Below are positions 237 through 10,484 of a stretch of DNA of 22,546 nucleotides, in pieces (positions within the stretch are counted from its first letter, which is position 1; each line of letters begins with the position of its first letter). Under the pieces are notes generated by a model. It saw only the letters and a list, made by a program, of their open reading frames with translations. It was not told the origin of the DNA and ran no database searches. Location of the stretch: the IMG/VR virus record IMGVR_UViG_3300037336_000010, positions 1 through 22,546 of that record. One strand, 5' to 3'. The stretch is from a virus. A program made the position numbers and the translations under genes.

Positions 237-629
237 ATGGCTACACATAAAGGCTCAGAAGGTTCGGTCGCAGTTGGTGCTAACGCCATTGCTGAGGTTC
301 GTTCTTTTTCAATCACCGAATCAGCAGACACTATTGAAGATACGGCAATGGGCGACACAGCACGCACCTACAAGCCCAGCCTAACATCGTTCAGCGGCTC
401 TGTAGAAGTGTTTTGGGACGAGACAGATACCAACGGCCAGGTTGCACTAGTAGTTGGCTCTGAGATTACATTTAACGTCTACCCAGAGGGTGCAACAAGC
501 GGCGACGCTTACTTGACCGGCTCTGCAATCGTTACCGGCAAGACAATCAATTCGTCTGCTGATGGCATGGTTGAGGCGTCTATTTCCCTACAGGGTAATG
601 GTGCGTTGACAACTGGCACAGTATCTTAA
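237..629 (+). CDS. Major tail tube protein
   Basis: This 130-residue protein starts at ATG 237 after an AAAGG ribosome site. It has no membrane segment and is rich in Thr, Ser, Gly and Val, typical of the beta-sandwich tail tube fold. It opens with MATHKGSEGSVAVG, has a central FSGSVEVFWDETDTNGQ strand region, and ends in strands around VEASISLQGNGAL, as in tail tube subunits of many proteobacterial siphophages. Such subunits stack as hexameric rings to form the DNA channel. The next gene is the tail assembly chaperone, in TAATG overlap, which is the standard order. The family call rests on recognition of the pattern and on gene order. Confidence 0.8.
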   Translation: MATHKGSEGSVAVGANAIAEVRSFSITESADTIEDTAMGDTARTYKPSLTSFSGSVEVFWDETDTNGQVALVVGSEITFNVYPEGATSGDAYLTGSAIVTGKTINSSADGMVEASISLQGNGALTTGTVS

Positions 630-970
630 TGTCGCTAGGCCAAAGGTTAGCCGCAAAACGGCAAAACAACCGCAAGCAAATCGAGGTGGTCGAATGGGGC
701 GAGGATGCTCCATTGGTTGTCTACACTAGCGCCTTGACCTGTGCTGACGTTGACAAGCTGCAACGCAAGCATAAGGACTTTATGGGCAACCCAACTATTG
801 CAGCGATGGTTGATTTGCTTATCATGAAGGCCGAGGACAAGGACGGCGAAAAGCTGTTTACTCTGGAAGACAAGCCGTTTTTGATGCGCGAGCCTGTAAT
901 TCTCATTTCGACCATTGCTGGTCAAATGTTTAGCACCATTGAGACGGTTGAAGAACTGGGAAACGACTAA
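629..970 (+). CDS. Tail assembly chaperone, short form (gpG-like)
   Basis: This 113-residue protein starts at 629, sharing a base with the tail tube stop (TAATG). It is the zero-frame product of a two-frame chaperone gene, equivalent to lambda gpG, which coats the tape measure during tail assembly and is absent from the finished virion. The protein is soluble and mainly helical, with the segment VDLLIMKAEDKDGEKLF and an end at EELGND. The last sense codons before the TAA at 968-970 lie inside a slippery heptamer (958-964), so a fraction of ribosomes should continue in the -1 frame. Size, position and the slip site together make the assignment strong. Confidence 0.8.
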   Translation: MSLGQRLAAKRQNNRKQIEVVEWGEDAPLVVYTSALTCADVDKLQRKHKDFMGNPTIAAMVDLLIMKAEDKDGEKLFTLEDKPFLMREPVILISTIAGQMFSTIETVEELGND

Positions 971-1116
971 AGGCAGACAGTTTGCGGTTCAACATGATTG
1001 GACTTGCAGACCGTTTGCACAAGACGATTCAAGAGATTGAGGAAATCCCAGTTACAGAGTTGAACGAGTGGCTTGCGTATTTCCAGCTAAAGGAAGAAAA
1101 AAATGGCGGCAAATGA
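629..1116 (+). CDS. Tail assembly chaperone, frameshifted long form (gpGT-like)
   Basis: This joined product has 112 zero-frame codons (629-964) followed by 50 codons read in the -1 frame (964-1113), 162 residues in all. The shifted part reads RLKADSLRFN then MIGLADRLHKTIQEI and ends EWLAYFQLKEEKNGGK. That LAxRL...ELNEWLAY pattern is typical of the T domain of lambda-like G/GT proteins, which recruits the tube protein to the chaperone-coated tape measure. The join fills what would otherwise be a 132-base gap, and its end overlaps the tape measure start at 1103 by 14 bases. An internal ATG at 994 could express T alone, but no clear ribosome site precedes it. Confidence 0.78.
958..964 (+). promoter_or_regulatory. 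-1 ribosomal frameshift slippery site G GGA AAC
   Basis: The heptamer GGGAAAC is set in the zero frame as G GGA AAC, a canonical X XXY YYZ slip site (lambda G/GT uses GGGAAAG). It lies four bases before the zero-frame stop TAA (968-970). Slipping back one base reads CGA CTA AAG and continues 50 codons to a TGA at 1114-1116. I did not identify a convincing downstream stem-loop or pseudoknot by eye. Confidence 0.8.
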
Positions 1117-3097
1117 CGTAAACATTCGAATAAGAGCGGTAGATGATACCGACAAGGCGTTTAGGTCTGTAAAAAGTTCTTTGGGTGGGCTTAAAAACGC
1201 CGTCTTTAGCGTCCAGGGCGCTATTGCTGGGATAATTAGTGGCGCAACGATTGGCACAATTGTTCAAGCCAACCGTTCGTTTCAAAGCCTACAAGCAAGC
1301 CTGATTACTTTTACAGGCTCTGCTGAAGCTGCCAGCAAGCAGTTTGAAATACTTCAAGAATTTGCCTCAAAAACGCCATTTTCACTTGAAGAAGTAGTTG
1401 GTGGCTTTAATAAGCTAGTTGCTCGTGGCATAAGCCCAACCATTGATTCATTTGCTGCATTTGGAGACATTGCTTCTGGCACTGGCAAAAGCCTAGACCA
1501 ATTTATCGAGGCGGTTGCTGACGCTGCTACCGGTGAGTTTGAGCGACTTAAAGAGTTTGGTATTACATCTAAGTCTGAAGGCAATAAAGTTGCTATAACA
1601 TTTGGAGGCATTACCAAAACTATTGGAAAAAACTCTACAGAGATACTTGCCTACCTTGAAAACTTGGCAAAAGTTAATTTTGCGGGGGCTACTGTTAGAC
1701 AGGCAAACACTTTAAACGGTGCCTTTTCTAATTTTGGCGACTCGGTTTCAAAGTTAAGTGTAGCGATTGGCGAAGCTGGTTTAAACGACTTTCTTGTCAC
1801 AGCCACAAGAGAAATGAGCCGGTTAATAAACGTTACAGCACAGGCGACAAAGGCCAATTTAGGTCTAATTGACGTTATTGGAATAACTTTGCGAGAGGCT
1901 TTCAGTGGCGCAACAGAGTCATTAAAAATATACAGAGAGGAGTTAGAGACGCTAAGAAAAGGGCGAAGCATTTTAGATTTTTTAGGTTTTGATTTAACTA
2001 ACTCAAACAAAGAAATTGATGATGTCCAAAAGAAGATAAACATCTTATTGATGTCAGAGAGAACGTCTAGCAGGGGTATGGGATTTGCAGACCCAAGGAT
2101 AATCAAAAGCCCAGTAAAAGCCTCGCCATCCACGCAAGACAGCGGGGCAGTTAAGAATGTTAAAACATATATAGATGAGATAAATGACGCCATTGCAGGC
2201 GCAATAAGAGGCTCTGATGTTGTTCGTGCTAAAGAGTTGGCAGACCAAATTAAGGCTCTTGATAATCTATATTTTGAAGCTGGCCTTAGTGCTGAAATTT
2301 ACGACTCGGCAATGAGGAAATTAACTGGCTCAACTGGTTCATTTAGCGAAAAAATTGACAAAGTTAAAAATGCTGTTGATTCATTTATAAGTGATAACGC
2401 TTTGACTCGCGGCGACAAAATGATAAAACAAATTGAAGAACTAGATAAAAGATTCTTTGATGGGGATATAACAATAAAGCAATACGATGCAGCAATGACT
2501 CAAATGACAGGGACAACAAAAAGTTTTGGAGAGCAAATTAAAAAAAGCCCACTTAAAGAGTTTGCAGATGGCATCAAGACCGTTGAGGACTCGATGCAGG
2601 ACATAGCCCTTGGTGGACTTATGAAGTTAGAGGACGGCTTGGTCGGCCTTATAAATGGCACAAAGAGCGCGTCTGATGCTTTCCGAGACATGGCAAACAA
2701 CATCATCAACGATATGATTCGCATGGTGATTCAGCAAAGCATTACAGCACCTTTGGCGGGTGCTTTAAGCGGTGCAATAAGTGGTATGTTTGGTGGCGCA
2801 TCGGCTCCGGCAATTCCTAGTGCAATTGGTGGCTCGGTTCAGTCAGGTAGGACGCACCTTGTCGGCGAGCGTGGGCCAGAGTTGTTCATACCATCAGCCA
2901 GTGGCTCAATTGTTCCAAACAACGCAATGGGTGGCGGTGGCATAACTGTGGTGCAAAACATAAATGTAAGCACCGGCGTACAACAAACCGTTCGCGCTGA
3001 GATAATGACCCTAATGCCTCAAATCTCAAACGCTGCTAAATCAGCAGTTGCAGAGGCAAGATTACGCGGTGGCTCATTTAGCGCTGCGATGAGGTAA
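1103..3097 (+). CDS. Tape measure protein
   Basis: This 664-residue protein starts at ATG 1103 after AAGGAAG. The N-terminal third carries the classic tape-measure domain: a hydrophobic segment near residues 32-55, then TPFSLEEVVGGFNKL, and FGDIASGTGKSLDQF. The middle is helical, with two related copies of a unit of about 60 residues (near residues 379-417 and 440-478). The C-terminus has alanine/glycine-rich hydrophobic segments and the conserved SGRTHLVGERGPELFIP motif shared with lambdoid tape measures, then a short strand and a basic tail. It sets tail length and is ejected with DNA. At roughly 1.5 angstroms per residue it would specify a tail near 100 nm (inference). Confidence 0.92.
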   Translation: MAANDVNIRIRAVDDTDKAFRSVKSSLGGLKNAVFSVQGAIAGIISGATIGTIVQANRSFQSLQASLITFTGSAEAASKQFEILQEFASKTPFSLEEVVGGFNKLVARGISPTIDSFAAFGDIASGTGKSLDQFIEAVADAATGEFERLKEFGITSKSEGNKVAITFGGITKTIGKNSTEILAYLENLAKVNFAGATVRQANTLNGAFSNFGDSVSKLSVAIGEAGLNDFLVTATREMSRLINVTAQATKANLGLIDVIGITLREAFSGATESLKIYREELETLRKGRSILDFLGFDLTNSNKEIDDVQKKINILLMSERTSSRGMGFADPRIIKSPVKASPSTQDSGAVKNVKTYIDEINDAIAGAIRGSDVVRAKELADQIKALDNLYFEAGLSAEIYDSAMRKLTGSTGSFSEKIDKVKNAVDSFISDNALTRGDKMIKQIEELDKRFFDGDITIKQYDAAMTQMTGTTKSFGEQIKKSPLKEFADGIKTVEDSMQDIALGGLMKLEDGLVGLINGTKSASDAFRDMANNIINDMIRMVIQQSITAPLAGALSGAISGMFGGASAPAIPSAIGGSVQSGRTHLVGERGPELFIPSASGSIVPNNAMGGGGITVVQNINVSTGVQQTVRAEIMTLMPQISNAAKSAVAEARLRGGSFSAAMR

Positions 3098-3099
3098 AT

Positions 3100-3720
3100 A
3101 TGGCAATTTCTTATCCAGTCACTTTCCCAGCCTCAATTGGCGTTAGCTCAATAAACATTCGAGCTAAAACCGTGGTTGGCGTTAGCTCGTCACCATTTAC
3201 TGGGCAGCAGCAAGTCTATAAACACCAGGGTCAATGGTGGGAGGCGGAGGTGAGCCTGCCACCAATGAAGCGAGACGAGGCCGAGCAGGTAGTTTCGTTT
3301 CTTATCAAGATGAATGGTCAATATGGCACTTTCTTGATGGGCGACTTTCTAAGCACGGCGCCTAGGGGCGTTGGTACTGGCACGCCACTTGTAAACGGTG
3401 CAAGCCAAGCTGGTGATGAATTGGTCACTGATGGCTGGACTGTAAGCACAACGGGCATACTGAAAGCCGGTGATTGGATACAGCTAGGCTCCGCTTCTAC
3501 CTCTACATTGCACAAGGTTTTGGACGATGTAACCAGCGATGGGTCGGGAAATGCCACTCTAAACATATTCCCTAACTTACGTTCATCGCCCGATAACAAT
3601 GCGGCAATCACAATCAGCAGCCCCAAAGGGCGGTGGCGCTTGGCCAGCAATGAGACGGACTACGCAATTGACAACGCCAGCATATACGGCATGACCTTTG
3701 CCTGTGTTGAGGCATTATGA
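3100..3720 (+). CDS. Distal/minor tail protein (gpM-position)
   Basis: This 206-residue protein starts at ATG 3100, two bases after the tape measure stop, with a GAGG ribosome site. It is strand-rich and has no membrane segment. An N-terminal part (FPASIGVSSINIRAK, then HQGQWWEAEVSLPP) and a C-terminal part (KGRWRLASNETDYAID) flank an inserted domain with GDWIQLG. This pattern recurs in siphophage proteins that sit just after the tape measure and join the tube end to the tip complex, such as the distal tail protein or lambda gpM position. The following gene overlaps by an ATGA. Role in the tail tip is well supported by order; exact family is not certain. Confidence 0.7.
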   Translation: MAISYPVTFPASIGVSSINIRAKTVVGVSSSPFTGQQQVYKHQGQWWEAEVSLPPMKRDEAEQVVSFLIKMNGQYGTFLMGDFLSTAPRGVGTGTPLVNGASQAGDELVTDGWTVSTTGILKAGDWIQLGSASTSTLHKVLDDVTSDGSGNATLNIFPNLRSSPDNNAAITISSPKGRWRLASNETDYAIDNASIYGMTFACVEAL

Positions 3721-4660: not shown

Positions 4661-7543
4661 ATGGCAAAGGCAGTAAAAGCAGCGGTAATTGTTGCGGCAG
4701 TCGCCACCGGCGTTGGTATGTTGGTCGCGCCAGGACTTATTGCGGGAGCAGGCGCTATCGCCGGTTTCGCTGCTGGTACGGCTGGTGCTTACTTTGCAAC
4801 TACCTTTGTATCAACCCTGGTGCTAGGCGCTGTTTCTAAGGCAATGGCCAAAACGCCAACAGGCGCATCCATTACCCAGCAAGACAAAACTGTAACATCG
4901 CGCCAGCCAATAGCGCCACACAACGTTATTTATGGTAGAACCCGCATAGGCGGCACGATTCTTTACATGGAATCAACCAATGCAAATAAATACTTACACG
5001 TTGTTGTTGCTATAGCAGGTCACGAAATAGATGCCATTGAAAAATTCTACTTTAATGACGCAGAGGTCACGATTGACGGCTCTGGCAACGTAAATGCAGG
5101 ACAATACAAAGACAAGGCAAGGATTAAGTACAAGCTCGGCACTGATGACCAAACAGCCTTTGCTGACTTGGTTGCAGAGTCTGGCAGCAAATGGACTAAC
5201 AACCACCGAGTGCGTGGTCGGGCTTTAGTTTATATGCGCCTTGAGTACGACCAAAACGTATTTATTAACGGAGTGCCAAACCTGTCTGTTGTTGTTCGCG
5301 GTAAAAAGGTTTATGACCCACGCACAGAGACAACTGTTTGGTCTGCAAACCCAGCTTTATGTGTAACCGACTACTTGACCAACAACAAGTACGGCATGGC
5401 GGCTGTTTACGCAAACGAAATAGACGAGGAAGCCTTAATTGCGGCGGCTAACATTTGTGACGAAGATGTAACCAAAGTAGGTGGTGGAACAGAAAACCGC
5501 TACGAGATGCATGGCTCTTTTGCCACATCAAGCCAGCCAGAGGACATTATTAACCAAATGGTTTTTGCAATGGCAGGTCGATGTATTTGGTCTGGCGGCG
5601 TTTGGCGCATTTTGGCAGGTGCGTACTACACGCCAACATTGACATTTGATGAAGGCGACTTGCGTGGCGGCATCAAGGTGCAGTCCCTAGTATCGCGCAG
5701 AGAGTCATTTAATGGGGTGAAGGGCGTCTTTGCCTCTGTAGACGATAACTACATACTCAGCGACTTTCCACCTATAAACTCTGCTGCTTTTGTCGCCAAA
5801 GACAACGGCGAAGAAAACCTAAAGTCAATTGAGTTGCCGTTTACCACCTCTGCAAGCATGGCGCAGCGTTTGGCCAAGATAGAGCTATTAAGGGCAAGAC
5901 AGCAAATCACGGTTGCAATGCCAATGAAGCTGGTTGGCATGAAGGCTAACGTCGGTGATATTGTTCAAATCAACAACACACGGATGGGTTGGTCAAGCAA
6001 ACCTTTTGAGGTTGTAAGTGCAAACATTGCTTTTGGCGAGACTGTTGGCGTTGATATTGATTTGCGCGAAGTCTCTACTGACGTCTACGATTGGTCTACC
6101 AGCGAAGAACAGACATACGACCCAGCACCAAACACAAACCTGCCAAGTGGCTTTGTGTCTGAACCAGTTGGTATAAGCATTACAGACACTTTAGCTATTA
6201 GCGCCGAAACTATCATTACACAGCTAGTTGTTACAGTAACAGGTAGCGACGTGTTTGAAGATAGATTCGAGGTTCAAGCTAAACCGTCTACTTCTGACGA
6301 TTTTTTAAACTTAGGCCAAGCCTCTGGAAATATATTTCAGCTTGCAAACGTTATTGATGGGGCTATTTACAACGTAAGAGCCAGGGCAATAAACGTTTTT
6401 GGCGTTCGCTCTGATTGGACTACGGACGACCACGAGGTTATCGGCAAGACTGCGCCTCCTGAAAACGTTACAGGGTTAACCGGCAACCTGATTGGCAATC
6501 AATACTTACTGACTTGGAACGCTGTTCCAGACCTTGATTTGTCTTACTACCGTGTTCGCTACGCATCACCCGACAGTGGTGGTAGCTACGAAAACTCGGT
6601 TTCTCTTGTTCCAAAAGTATCTCGCCCAGCAACTTCTGTATTTGTGCCCGCACGAAACGGAACTTACTTTGTTAAAGCTGTGGATAAGCTAAGCCTGGCA
6701 TCCATCACTCCAGCAAGTATTGCTTTAGATACAAACATTGCAGCGGTTGAGTCTCTTAACGTCATTCAAACAATCAATGAAGCTCCAGATTTTAACGGCA
6801 CGTTTGATGACACAGTAGAACTGGATGAAGACGATGCTTTAGTGCTAAACACCAGCGTGTTGTTTGACGCTGTATCGGGTGATTTTGATGACGCAAGCGG
6901 TTTATTTGATGGCGGCTCCGGTAACGTAGATGCATTTGGCTACTACTACTTTGCAACTGACGTTGACTTGGGCGCAATTTACATATCACGTTGCACAGCC
7001 TATGTTAAACACATACGCTTAGATTACGTTGTATTGTTTGATTCGGCTGAAGGTTTGTTTGATGACCGACAAGGCGACTTTGAAGGCGATGTAAACGCTT
7101 TTGACGATACAGACGTACAAATAGAAGCAAGGCATACTCAGGACAACCCAAGCGGCACGCCTACATGGTCGGCATGGCAATCGTTCGCAGTTACTGACAT
7201 AAGGGCACGCGCCATTCAGTTTAGAGCCAAGTTAAGCACAACGGATGAGCAGGCCACACCCAAAGTTACTCAGCTGAGCGTTAACGTCGACATGCCTGAC
7301 CGCACTGTATCGGGGAATGATATTGTTTCTGGTGCTGGCGCAAAGGTTGTAACGTTTGCACAAGGCTTTAGGGAAACACCGGCAATAGGCATTGGGGCGC
7401 AGGATATGCAGACAGGCGACTACTACGAAATCACCTCAAAGTCTCGTACAGGGTTTACAATAACCTTTAAAAATTCATCTGGTACGGCAATCAGCCGCAG
7501 TTTTGATTATGTAGCCAAAGGCTACGGAGTGGAGTTAAGCTAA
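4661..7543 (+). CDS. Tail tip attachment / host specificity protein (J-like)
   Basis: This 960-residue protein starts one base after the previous stop, with a GGAG site. The first 65 residues are hydrophobic and Ala/Gly-rich, as in the gpI/gpJ region. Residues about 80-200 show the tip motif APHNVIYGRTRIGGTILY followed by VAIAGHEIDAIEKFYFND. The middle has hub-like strands and the C-terminal third has a fibronectin type III-like domain near residues 597-690 (PPENVTGLTGN, then YYRVRYASPDSGG). Residues about 725-810 carry an Asp/Phe-rich repeat (LFDAVSGDFDDASGLFDGG and a second copy). This protein forms the central tip. The true variable receptor-binding role probably lies with the next gene, which carries the DGR variable repeat. 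Confidence 0.87.
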   Translation: MAKAVKAAVIVAAVATGVGMLVAPGLIAGAGAIAGFAAGTAGAYFATTFVSTLVLGAVSKAMAKTPTGASITQQDKTVTSRQPIAPHNVIYGRTRIGGTILYMESTNANKYLHVVVAIAGHEIDAIEKFYFNDAEVTIDGSGNVNAGQYKDKARIKYKLGTDDQTAFADLVAESGSKWTNNHRVRGRALVYMRLEYDQNVFINGVPNLSVVVRGKKVYDPRTETTVWSANPALCVTDYLTNNKYGMAAVYANEIDEEALIAAANICDEDVTKVGGGTENRYEMHGSFATSSQPEDIINQMVFAMAGRCIWSGGVWRILAGAYYTPTLTFDEGDLRGGIKVQSLVSRRESFNGVKGVFASVDDNYILSDFPPINSAAFVAKDNGEENLKSIELPFTTSASMAQRLAKIELLRARQQITVAMPMKLVGMKANVGDIVQINNTRMGWSSKPFEVVSANIAFGETVGVDIDLREVSTDVYDWSTSEEQTYDPAPNTNLPSGFVSEPVGISITDTLAISAETIITQLVVTVTGSDVFEDRFEVQAKPSTSDDFLNLGQASGNIFQLANVIDGAIYNVRARAINVFGVRSDWTTDDHEVIGKTAPPENVTGLTGNLIGNQYLLTWNAVPDLDLSYYRVRYASPDSGGSYENSVSLVPKVSRPATSVFVPARNGTYFVKAVDKLSLASITPASIALDTNIAAVESLNVIQTINEAPDFNGTFDDTVELDEDDALVLNTSVLFDAVSGDFDDASGLFDGGSGNVDAFGYYYFATDVDLGAIYISRCTAYVKHIRLDYVVLFDSAEGLFDDRQGDFEGDVNAFDDTDVQIEARHTQDNPSGTPTWSAWQSFAVTDIRARAIQFRAKLSTTDEQATPKVTQLSVNVDMPDRTVSGNDIVSGAGAKVVTFAQGFRETPAIGIGAQDMQTGDYYEITSKSRTGFTITFKNSSGTAISRSFDYVAKGYGVELS

Positions 7544-8835
7544 TGTCACAGCACGATATGAACATTGCGAACCAGGGTTTTCCTGCATTTCGCGCCGACT
7601 TAAACGACGCTCTGCCAGCATTGGCAAGCAACAACTCAGGCGCAACAGAGCCTAGCACTACCTTTGCAAATCAATTTTGGTATGACACTGCAAACAACAC
7701 GCTAAAACAGAGAAATGAATTAAATACTGATTGGCTTGATATTTTTGAAATAAATCAGTCAACAGGAGTTTTAAATTTTTTATCCCCAGAAATTGGCGGG
7801 GCAACTGCAACAACTCAATCGTCTGACAATGATTCAACAAAGGTTGCGACAACTGCTTTTGTTAAATCTGTTGGCGCAGTCTCTTATGGATTGTTCCGCA
7901 AGGCCAACCCAGACACTGTAGCTTGGACAAAGACCGGCGCTGGCACAGCAACAACAGCGACAATTCTTTATGTAGAGGTCAATGGCGTGCTTCGCACAAT
8001 TTCCAGCGGCACAAGCATTACTATGCCAACTTTTGCCGGTGGCACTGATTATGCAATTTGGTGTAAGCCTGACGGCACACTGGAGGCCACGAGCAACCAC
8101 ACCAGCCCACCTGTTTCCGATTCTCGCAAGGTCGGCGGCTTTCATTACGCCCCAGGCGGCAACGCCACAGGCACAAGCGGGGGAGATACAACACCTGCAA
8201 TCAATGAATATTCCCTTTGGGATTTAAAGTGGCGTCCTGCCTGCCCAGACCCACGCGGCATGACGTTAGTGGGTGGCGGCTTTTGGTCTGACATCTACCT
8301 AACAGGCGTAGACGCTATCACCAACGGCTCAAGCAAATACAACGTCACTATGGCTGACGGCTCAAGCCCACCCAAAGTGCCCACGATGTTCGGCGGCAAC
8401 GGCTCCACTACATACGGCTCTTACACATGGTTTGAGGCGCAAGAATTTTCTACGGCATTTGGTAAGCGGACAGTTACACAGCAAGAATACATGTCGCTGG
8501 CCTATGGCACCACGGAGGCATCGTCTGTTGGCAGCGACCAAGGTAGCACCATCCTTAATGCTGCCTACACATCCAAGTGGGGCGTCATGCAGTCGGCTGG
8601 CGTGCTGTGGGTGTGGGGGCGCGACCGTGGTGGGCCATTCGCTAGTGCGGCGTGGAACGCCAACACGGAAGGCCGTGGCTCGGAATACAACGCGCCCAAC
8701 TCTGCGCTCTTTGGCGGCCCCTGGGGCAACGGCTCGAACTCCGGTTCGCGCTGCTCGCTCTGGGGCAACGCTGCCTCGCTCTCGAACGTCAGCGTCGGGT
8801 CGCGCTTTCTCTGTGACCACCTGCAACTTGACTAA
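7543..8835 (+). CDS. DGR-diversified tail fibre / receptor-binding protein
   Basis: This 430-residue protein overlaps the J-like stop (TAATG). N-terminal residues 1-125 are fibre-like and end in DSTKVATTAFVKS, a motif seen in side-tail-fibre proteins; a strand-rich domain follows (YGLFRKANPDTVAWTKTGAG). The C-terminal part, from about residue 225, looks like the C-type-lectin fold of DGR targets: LVGGGFWSDIYLTGVDAITN, FEAQEFSTAFGKRTVTQQEY, then WVWGRDRGG and the final GSRFLCDH. Residues 385-425 are encoded by the variable repeat. Residues N in the template have become P385, P393, G395, L406, G408, L413, V416 and S417 here. It should form the cell-binding tip and is the target of DGR mutagenesis. 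The stop is followed at once by the DGR hairpin. Confidence 0.9.
   Translation: MSQHDMNIANQGFPAFRADLNDALPALASNNSGATEPSTTFANQFWYDTANNTLKQRNELNTDWLDIFEINQSTGVLNFLSPEIGGATATTQSSDNDSTKVATTAFVKSVGAVSYGLFRKANPDTVAWTKTGAGTATTATILYVEVNGVLRTISSGTSITMPTFAGGTDYAIWCKPDGTLEATSNHTSPPVSDSRKVGGFHYAPGGNATGTSGGDTTPAINEYSLWDLKWRPACPDPRGMTLVGGGFWSDIYLTGVDAITNGSSKYNVTMADGSSPPKVPTMFGGNGSTTYGSYTWFEAQEFSTAFGKRTVTQQEYMSLAYGTTEASSVGSDQGSTILNAAYTSKWGVMQSAGVLWVWGRDRGGPFASAAWNANTEGRGSEYNAPNSALFGGPWGNGSNSGSRCSLWGNAASLSNVSVGSRFLCDHLQLD
8695..8817 (+). repeat. DGR variable repeat (VR)
   Basis: This 123-bp segment at the 3' end of the fibre gene aligns without gaps to the template repeat at 9230-9352 (constant offset 535). 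From 8695 to 8808 there are 17 mismatches, and at every one the template base is A: 8695, 8696, 8709, 8719, 8720, 8725, 8726, 8758, 8759, 8764, 8765, 8779, 8780, 8788, 8789, 8792 and 8794. Eight are C, six are G and three are T. No non-adenine template base differs before 8809. The change at 8709 (CTA to CTC) is silent, which marks mutation rather than selection. The left edge is placed where alignment fails (8694 against 9229). Confidence 0.95.
8795..8827 (+). promoter_or_regulatory. Initiation of mutagenic homing (IMH)-like segment
   Basis: Just after the last adenine change, 8795-8808 is a 14-base GC-rich stretch (TCGGGTCGCGCTTT) identical in VR and TR. It is followed by a segment where the two copies differ at non-adenine positions: C at 8809 against G at 9344, and C at 8818 against G at 9353, then scattered mismatches. 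In the Bordetella phage BPP-1 system the IMH has this same layout, and VR/TR differences there fix the direction of information flow. The right edge is approximate. Confidence 0.75.
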
Positions 8836-8853
8836 GCAGGGCGAAAGCCCTGC
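8836..8853 (+). promoter_or_regulatory. DGR target-site hairpin/cruciform, GAAA tetraloop
   Basis: Directly after the fibre gene stop, GCAGGGC (8836-8842), GAAA (8843-8846) and GCCCTGC (8847-8853) form a perfect 7-bp stem with a GNRA tetraloop. A short-stem GRNA-loop hairpin or cruciform just 3' of VR is a known cis element for efficient retrohoming in BPP-1-type DGRs. There is no T tract, so it is not a standard terminator. It lies 18 bases past the VR end and 7 bases before the first possible avd start. Confidence 0.85.
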
Positions 8854-8859
8854 GTTTAG

Positions 8860-9231
8860 ATGCAACCAATAAAGGATTCAGCTTGTTTCGATCAAATGGC
8901 AATAGTGGAAAAATACGAGAGGGTTATCTCGTATCTGTACCCTATTGCCCAGTCAATACCGAGAAAACATGGAGTGGCGAGGGATATGTTTTTGCAATGC
9001 CTGATGGGTGTGCCCGACACACTTGTGCAAGCTGGCAAAAGCAATCAAGTCTCAAAACTCTACGCCGCAGACGCACAGCTTGCTCATCTGCGGTTTTGGG
9101 TGCGCTTTCTGGTTTCGATCAAGTGTTTAACAAAGCACCAGCAAGAGACATCACAAGTGTTAATTGCAGAAGTTGGGGCGATGTTGGGGGCTTGGCTCAA
9201 GCACAGAAAAGCACAAGGGCAGTCTGGATAA
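8860..9231 (+). CDS. avd: DGR accessory variability determinant (Avd)
   Basis: This 123-residue, helix-rich protein lies between VR and TR, the BPP-1 order. It contains EKYERVISYLYPIAQSIPRK (near residue 16), then ARDMFLQ, LAHLRFWVRFLVS and a basic C-terminus, matching the four-helix Avd family (about 110-130 residues). Avd forms a barrel-shaped pentamer that binds the reverse transcriptase and template RNA and is needed for mutagenic cDNA synthesis. The start is uncertain: ATG 8860 has no clear ribosome site because the hairpin is directly upstream, and ATG 8896 would give 111 residues beginning MAIVEKYERV, close to family starts. The stop TAA (9229-9231) overlaps the first bases of TR. Confidence 0.88.
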   Translation: MQPIKDSACFDQMAIVEKYERVISYLYPIAQSIPRKHGVARDMFLQCLMGVPDTLVQAGKSNQVSKLYAADAQLAHLRFWVRFLVSIKCLTKHQQETSQVLIAEVGAMLGAWLKHRKAQGQSG

Positions 9232-9352
9232 CAACTCTGCGCTATTTGGCGGCAACTGGAACAACGGCTCGAACTCCGGTTCGCGCTGCTCGAACTGGAA
9301 CAACGCTGCCTCGAACTCGAACAACAACATCGGGTCGCGCTTTGTCTGTGAC
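9230..9352 (+). repeat. DGR template repeat (TR)
   Basis: This is the 123-bp invariant donor copy of the VR. Read in the VR register it has 13 AAC codons in 41, the hallmark of DGR templates. Changing the two adenines of AAC gives 15 amino acids and never a stop. It has 29 adenines, of which 17 differ in the present VR. It starts inside the avd stop codon and ends near the IMH* equivalent (9330-9362). It is probably transcribed with avd and the spacer as the template RNA. The same register is open from 9164 to 9469, but I see no reason to think it is translated. Confidence 0.95.
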
Positions 9353-9500
9353 GACGTACATCCAACGCTCTGCCAACGCTCCGGCTTGGCAGGCAGACCA
9401 ATCCACATGTGGTCAGCCAGCGCTGTCCTGCTTCGGCAAATACATTTCGGGGTTCGGCATAACGCCTAGTAGGAAATCCAAAAGCGCAGCCGACTTTTTT
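9353..9500 (+). ncRNA. TR-RT spacer, probable part of DGR template RNA
   Basis: The 148 bases between TR and the reverse transcriptase start hold no gene of their own. BPP-1 has a structured spacer of similar length (about 140 nt) here, which takes part in priming and in binding RT-Avd. A perfect 7-bp hairpin is visible: CTGCCAA (9370-9376) pairs with TTGGCAG (9386-9392) around a 9-base loop, with no T tract. The RT frame is open through this spacer, so an upstream start for RT cannot be fully excluded. Confidence 0.6.
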
Positions 9501-10484
9501 ATGCCAAAAAAACACCGCAATCTGATTGACCAAATCGTGTCTTTGGACAACCTCCAAGAGGCGTACCGCAAAACATCCAAAGGTAAAAAAATGACCTTTG
9601 GTTATTTGGAGTTTAAAGAGTACGACCAAGCCAATCTGCGATTGATTCAGCAAGAGCTTGCTGATGGGGCTTACAACATTGGTGGTTATCGTCAGTTTAC
9701 TATTTACGAACCAAAGCCAAGATTAATATCTGCGTTAGATTTTAAAGACCGTTTGGTGCAGCATGCTTTGTGCAATGTTATCAGCCCTATTTTTGAGAAA
9801 ACTCTAATGCCGCAGACATTTGCTTGCCGCGTAGGCATGGGCACCCATGCTGGAGTGGCTTTTGTTCAAGCCCGCATGAGGAACTTAGATTCCAAGTATT
9901 TTTTAAAAACAGATTACTCCAAGTTTTTTCCAAGCATAAACCGTGCCGTGTTGCACAAAATGATTGACCGCAAAATTGATTGTGATAAAACGCTGCGTAT
10001 CTTGCGCGAGACCATCCCAACTGAAGGCAAGGGCATACCTATTGGCAGCCTGACAAGCCAACTTTTTGCCAACGTGTATGGCAATGCCGCCGACCGATTT
10101 ATTCACTTTGACCTCAAGCAGCGCCATTGGGCGCGTTACATGGACGACATTGTGATTCTTGGCGACGACAAGGACGAGCTAATGGACTCGTTTTTAAGGT
10201 TAAATGATTTTTCAATGGAACACTTAAGTCTGCGCATCGGCAAATGGCAGGTCTCACAGACCAGCCGTGGCGTAAACTTTTTGGGCTACCGGATTTGGAA
10301 AAACCACAAACTGCTTCGCAAAGACTCAGTGCTTCGCGCAAAGCGTAAAATTGCAAGATACATTGGCAATCAAGACGAAGAATCTTTGACTAAGTTTTTG
10401 GCATCGTGGTCAGGCCATGCAAAGTGGGCTGACACTCATCATCTTTTTAATTGGCTGGAGCAAAAGCATGGCATCACTGCATAA
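9501..10484 (+). CDS. DGR reverse transcriptase
   Basis: This 327-residue protein has RT motifs in order. FLKTDYSKFFPSI carries catalytic D138. IPIGSLTSQLFANVY (near residues 180-194) is the DGR-clade motif 4, with the SQ pair in place of the QG found in most retroviral and group II enzymes. ARYMDDIVIL has Y213-M-D-D216, followed by GVNFLGYRIW. With Avd it makes adenine-mutagenised cDNA from TR. ATG 9501 (MPKKHRNLIDQIVSLDN) matches normal DGR-RT starts and length, but the nearest AGGAA (9471-9475) is 25 bases upstream. The frame stays open back to a TTG at 8883 with AAAGGA six bases before it, giving a 533-residue alternative; that extension looks low-complexity over TR. Confidence 0.93.
   Translation: MPKKHRNLIDQIVSLDNLQEAYRKTSKGKKMTFGYLEFKEYDQANLRLIQQELADGAYNIGGYRQFTIYEPKPRLISALDFKDRLVQHALCNVISPIFEKTLMPQTFACRVGMGTHAGVAFVQARMRNLDSKYFLKTDYSKFFPSINRAVLHKMIDRKIDCDKTLRILRETIPTEGKGIPIGSLTSQLFANVYGNAADRFIHFDLKQRHWARYMDDIVILGDDKDELMDSFLRLNDFSMEHLSLRIGKWQVSQTSRGVNFLGYRIWKNHKLLRKDSVLRAKRKIARYIGNQDEESLTKFLASWSGHAKWADTHHLFNWLEQKHGITA

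Follow-up and report, generated by a model that had tools for sequence, protein, structure and literature searches.

Which product is encoded between the tail assembly chaperone gene and the tape measure gene of this virus, and how would a ribosome reach it? The window, by which we mean the whole analysed stretch of 22,546 nucleotides (IMG/VR record IMGVR_UViG_3300037336_000010), carries a tail module in which, according to the list of open reading frames and their profile matches, a tube gene (237-629), a G gene (629-970) and a tape measure gene (1103-3097) follow one another. All junctions of this module are at most 24 nt long except one, a gap of 132 nt at 971-1102. Long-tailed phages are well known for obtaining a longer form of the chaperone by a -1 slip, and the original prediction placed such a slip here, closing the only sizeable gap of the module. 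The features on which the argument turns are the following:

237..629, plus strand: tail tube (major tail) protein; phrog_1407 major tail protein, E 3.2e-14
629..970, plus strand: G ORF, tail assembly chaperone, 113 aa; phrog_344, fold match, position between tube and tape measure
958..964, plus strand: slippery heptamer G_GGA_AAC; frame of ATG 629, kept in relatives
964..1116, plus strand: T domain, 50 aa plus TGA, read after the putative slip; -1-frame ORF, pN/pS, phrog_337
968..970, plus strand: zero-frame TAA, end of the short product G; from the sequence
973..1018, plus strand: predicted RNA stem-loop, candidate 3' stimulator; from folding, starts 8 nt after the heptamer
1103..3097, plus strand: tape measure protein; Pfam TMP_3 E 7.5e-12 and Tape_meas_lam_C E 2.5e-7, phrog_1716 E 1.9e-61

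The tape measure gene begins within T, with which it shares 14 nt. The tape measure protein would be the expected client of G and of the fusion GT; for the T domain, the partner to be expected would be the tail tube protein.

A search of viral contigs returned 75 loci. Once the window and cultured phages had been included, 76 loci were readable across the stop, 40 of which (69-100% identity to the window) form lineage A and 36 lineage B. The G protein matched the profile of the tail assembly chaperone phrog_344 with an E-value of 3.5e-4, and in its own frame its pN/pS is 0.19 in lineage A and 0.33 in lineage B. Its AlphaFold model, built from 25 sequences (pLDDT 86), gave as top PDB match by Foldseek the HK97 tail assembly chaperone 2OB9 (prob 1.00, E 2.4e-3, TM 0.56-0.60), which is the closest solved structure to the predicted fold, although sequence identity is only 18% and a sequence-profile search of the PDB with G returned no match. 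On this model, G has the fold of a tail assembly chaperone.

As originally predicted, GGGAAAC lies just before the zero-frame stop: read in the frame of ATG 629, the heptamer at 958-964 is separated from TAA 968-970 by the three bases GAC. The -1 frame is open from TGA 949-951 through to TGA 1114-1116, and because stops bound both frames, only 19 nt of the overlap 949-970 can be used by a -1 slip, with the heptamer inside. The resulting fusion (629-964 joined to 964-1113) has 112 + 50 = 162 aa, precisely the length that had been forecast, and reads EELGNRLK across the G-T junction. In a random codon stretch of the length of this overlap, any X_XXY_YYZ motif is expected with a chance of about 1.5%, and one of the four top-ranking heptamers, GGGAAAC/G or AAAAAAC/G, with one of about 0.23%. 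One mark of the lambda-type G/GT arrangement is a slippery heptamer where the zero frame and the shifted frame overlap, close to the 3' end of G; in this arrangement G and GT are both made, G far outnumbers GT, and tail assembly depends on their ratio.

Furthermore, the 50 codons that follow in the -1 frame behave as a protein domain. In lineage A, T has a pN/pS of 0.18 in the -1 frame versus 0.99 and 2.69 in the other two frames, and in lineage B it has 0.31, the other frames of both lineages giving about 1 to 2.7; judged by these substitution patterns, T evolves as a protein only in the -1 frame and is under purifying selection there. The domain, originally described as T-like, matched phrog_337, a tail protein, in 21 of 21 members tested (best E 1.1e-6). 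The Pfam family Phage_tail_T (PF06223) was matched by T with only 12.7 bits, below its curated cutoff of 25.9, and weak sub-threshold matches occurred in 8 members (best E 0.048 among 21); the domain would work like T but falls outside PF06223 by score. Its predicted model consists of three helices. The models of both G and T also matched the annotated tail assembly chaperone of Rhodobacter phage RcRhea (A0A0K1LL64, 160 aa). Start codons for T are not conserved across the lineages, T thus being a conserved domain lacking a conserved start of its own.

Clear evidence comes from the relatives. Loci with a non-slippery sequence at this place, or with stops in the -1 frame, were looked for among the 76, and none was found: GGGAAAC is present in 40/40 loci of lineage A and AAAAAAC in 36/36 of lineage B, and the same T domain is reached by an open -1 frame in every one of them. 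The AAAAAAC of lineage B is placed 3 nt further downstream than GGGAAAC, abutting the stop. Because the heptamer has switched in type and moved by 3 nt while reaching the same -1 frame, the change from G_GGA_AAC to A_AAA_AAC shows that selection acts on slipperiness and not on the amino acids. Codon usage adds to this. Among 34 columns with an invariant amino acid in lineage A, only two never change codon, and these are the slip codons GGA and AAC; GGA serves for 5 of 89 glycine codons elsewhere in the lineage-A G genes versus 16 of 16 at the slip site. In lineage B, all four columns with an invariant amino acid are codon-fixed, namely AAC, AAA, GAA and a GAG that belongs to a GAGGA motif. In lineage B this Shine-Dalgarno-like GAGGA never varies (GAG in 19/19); it stands 6 nt upstream of AAAAAAC, covering roughly the stretch from 11 to 7 nt ahead of the heptamer, and is a possible 5' stimulator there. 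In the window's lineage it is not invariant. Among wider relatives, A_AAA_AAC occurs in phi3LM21, DSL-LC06 and a Kaistia soli prophage, A_AAA_AAG in HTVC111P and HTVC112P, and GGGAAAC directly against the stop in four further contigs (L172-L175). A scan of bacterial genomes gave only three loci and no host.

Downstream of the heptamer, folding predicts a strong hairpin at 973-1018 (dG -22.2 kcal/mol), with z-scores of -4.0 against dinucleotide shuffles and -2.5 against synonymous-codon resampling, in which 1 of 200 resamplings was as stable; among 700 stretches of 54 nt scanned around it, its region ranks first in stability. Hairpins were likewise predicted in all representatives of lineage A and all non-roseophage representatives of lineage B (z -1.5 to -4.6 against synonymous resampling), and folding of the roseophage representatives revealed no such hairpin. 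A consensus fold of the combined lineage-A alignment of the 3' flank yielded no shared structure, since the sublineages pair in different registers: folded singly, the sequences form strong hairpins whose pairing registers differ between sublineages, and within sublineages 91-94% of cells pair in register versus 20-47% when it is slid. Covariation is modest and is not claimed as proof; in lineage B the number of cells changed on both sides exceeds all shuffles, but the count of pairs so changed does not. The spacer between heptamer and structure is usually 5-9 nt, according to PMC5009743; in lineage A it is 8 nt, inside this range, and in lineage B about 4 nt. The window accordingly holds a predicted stable RNA structure at the distance of about 5-9 nt that defines programmed -1 frameshifting with a 3' stimulator. 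Because the register differs among sublineages and the hairpin is absent in the roseophages, we regard it as no more than a candidate stimulator of the slip.

Could T be made as a separate short protein instead, either from an internal start or by termination at TAA 968 and a restart nearby? The original prediction had held that T has no good start; this is worded too strongly, since it overlooked the only plausible internal candidate, TTG 982, which has TAAAGG 8 nt upstream and could in principle give a separate T of 44 aa. As a start, this codon is not preserved throughout the relatives. ATG or TTG occupies it in 15 of 16 representatives of lineage A, and in two prophage relatives an ATG overlaps the stop. 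However, the matching codon is usually no start in lineage B and in one further relative (L039), and in the window TTG 982 is paired within the predicted hairpin with a probability of 1.0. A separately made T would have no use for a slippery heptamer, yet in lineage A it is the slip codons, and no others, that are fixed. We therefore consider separate synthesis of T in the window very improbable. The two prophages, in an Akkermansiaceae MAG (L196, 10336-10348) and in Kaistia soli (L198, 10282-10293), combine A_AAA_AAC with the overlapping starts TAATG and TGATG, respectively, and may make T both fused and alone.

A change of frame by slippage of the polymerase at a homopolymer would be suggested by those relatives in which a run of exactly nine A's takes the place of the slip site, which is long enough to make polymerase slippage plausible. 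The window, in contrast, has only GGG and AAA, with no run longer than three bases, too short for such slippage, and lineage B has seven A's; for the window this explanation is negligible. Equally negligible, and refuted by comparison across the relatives, is the idea of decay or chance, that is, adjacent ORFs with an accidental heptamer of the frequency given above and no product, or of a sequencing error splitting one gene, as the frame relation is the same in 76/76 loci, purifying selection acts on T in the -1 frame and cultured phages have the same gap.

In the relatives with long A runs, the route to T may be a different one. In ten contigs (L162-L171; 5 distinct sequences, in L162 at about 3302-3318), T lies in the +1 frame behind an exact A9 run. 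Because of this +1 frame, GT cannot come from a -1 slip at the usual heptamer there, and would need a different event, perhaps the loss of one A by polymerase slippage, or else a +1 or -2 slip of the ribosome. Overall, the routes to T found in the family comprise G_GGA_AAC with a hairpin (the window), A_AAA_AAC with or without a hairpin, A_AAA_AAG, and the exact nine-A run of pelagiphage-like members. It is conceivable, though we hold it at somewhat less than even, that the route changes within one family, ribosome slippage having been replaced by polymerase slippage in L162-L171; if true, this would be such a replacement for one and the same assembly protein. A literature search combining transcriptional slippage with tail assembly chaperones found only general works. 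All 80 HTVC026P-like contigs have GTAAAAAAAAAC. The pelagiphage-like relatives L079, L082-L161 and L199 have it before the stop in 65/65 distinct sequences, with T in the -1 frame; in these, slippage of ribosome and of polymerase are both possible. Finally, in the single-cell record of marine virus AG-345-A17 (L205, about 1230-1330) a T-like domain again occupies the +1 frame, but no long run of A's accompanies it.

For the window itself, the invariance of the heptamer, the fixation of the slip codons and the pN/pS of T in the -1 frame argue that little room is left for anything but a selected frameshift, and a lambda-type arrangement, in which a -1 slip at GGGAAAC makes GT beside G, is almost certainly the correct reading. 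The programmed frameshift originally proposed thereby gains support from features kept across the relatives; the hairpin, the synonymous-codon fixation and the earlier proposals of the same types of site had been absent from that proposal. Sequence supports the site, the open -1 frame, the selection on T, the slip-codon fixation and the gene order, together with the hairpin and the G fold as predictions, and from these we infer the slip itself, its rate, the pausing at the hairpin and the role of GT in assembly as follows. The majority of ribosomes starting at 629 would terminate at TAA 968 and release the 113-aa G. A minority, with tRNAs on GGA in the P site and AAC in the A site, would be held up by the hairpin at 973-1018, shift backwards by a single base onto GGG AAA, and continue in the -1 frame as far as 1113, giving the 162-aa GT. 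If lambda is a guide, the tape measure protein would be coated by many copies of G and few of GT, and the T part of GT would recruit tail tube subunits so that the tube attains the right length. Among the points against the slip here is that, according to PMC5009743, AAC as a second slip codon was much less shifty than AAG in an A-rich heptamer in E. coli, although E. coli may not match the host of this virus.

The lambda G/GT case defines this kind of frameshift, as outlined in PMC5009743. The window resembles lambda gpG/gpGT (G_GGA_AAG) in the order tube, G, T, tape measure, in the position of the proposed -1 slip just before the G stop, in the re-pairing on GGG AAA that this slip would involve, and in having T as a short domain that the -1 frame adds at the C-terminus. 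It differs in its second slip codon, which is AAC (Asn) and in lambda AAG (Lys), and in its strong predicted 3' hairpin; no detectable sequence similarity of its G and T to gpG and gpT was established. Sites of the same types have already been proposed for tail chaperones in other phages, namely GGGAAAC in Caulobacter phage Colossus and AAAAAAC in phiCbK (PMC3556154), GGGAAAC in Burkholderia phage KL1 (PMC3483164), and G_GGA_AAC and A_AAA_AAC in the haloarchaeal tailed viruses HCTV-1/-2 (PMC5009743). These have heptamers and a gene pair as here, and the passages reporting them describe no hairpin or codon-fixation test. The window is thus a further, well-supported case of a known type. Also among its nearest known counterparts are the Roseobacter phages CRP-811, -821, -822, -823, -831 and -406 and Pelagibacter phage HTVC026P, whose G proteins are 40-54% identical to that of the window; all five checked (CRP-823, -406, -811, -831 and HTVC026P) have A_AAA_AAC with T in the -1 frame. 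T is unannotated in the records of these phages, and the roseophages lack the window's hairpin.

Elsewhere, the window (7543-10484) holds a complete diversity-generating retroelement with these parts:

within 7543-10484: Mtd-like target protein; Pfam mtd_2nd E 8e-16, variable repeat 8697-8825
8860-9231: bAvd-like accessory gene; E 5.5e-29
9232-9360: template repeat; 85% identical to the variable repeat, 16 of 19 differences at template A's
about 9480-10484: reverse transcriptase; RVT_1 E 2.7e-16

Following from our analysis, the gene map has to be corrected, as the gap before the tape measure gene encodes T in the window and in the checked Roseobacter and Pelagibacter phages, from all of which simple gene calling had omitted it, as anticipated. 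A well-supported G_GGA_AAC site with a predicted 3' hairpin is added to those already proposed. Moreover, this family varies the shift site, the register of the hairpin and even the direction of the shift while the protein outcome is kept, and such variation is useful for testing what sets the ratio of G to GT outside E. coli.
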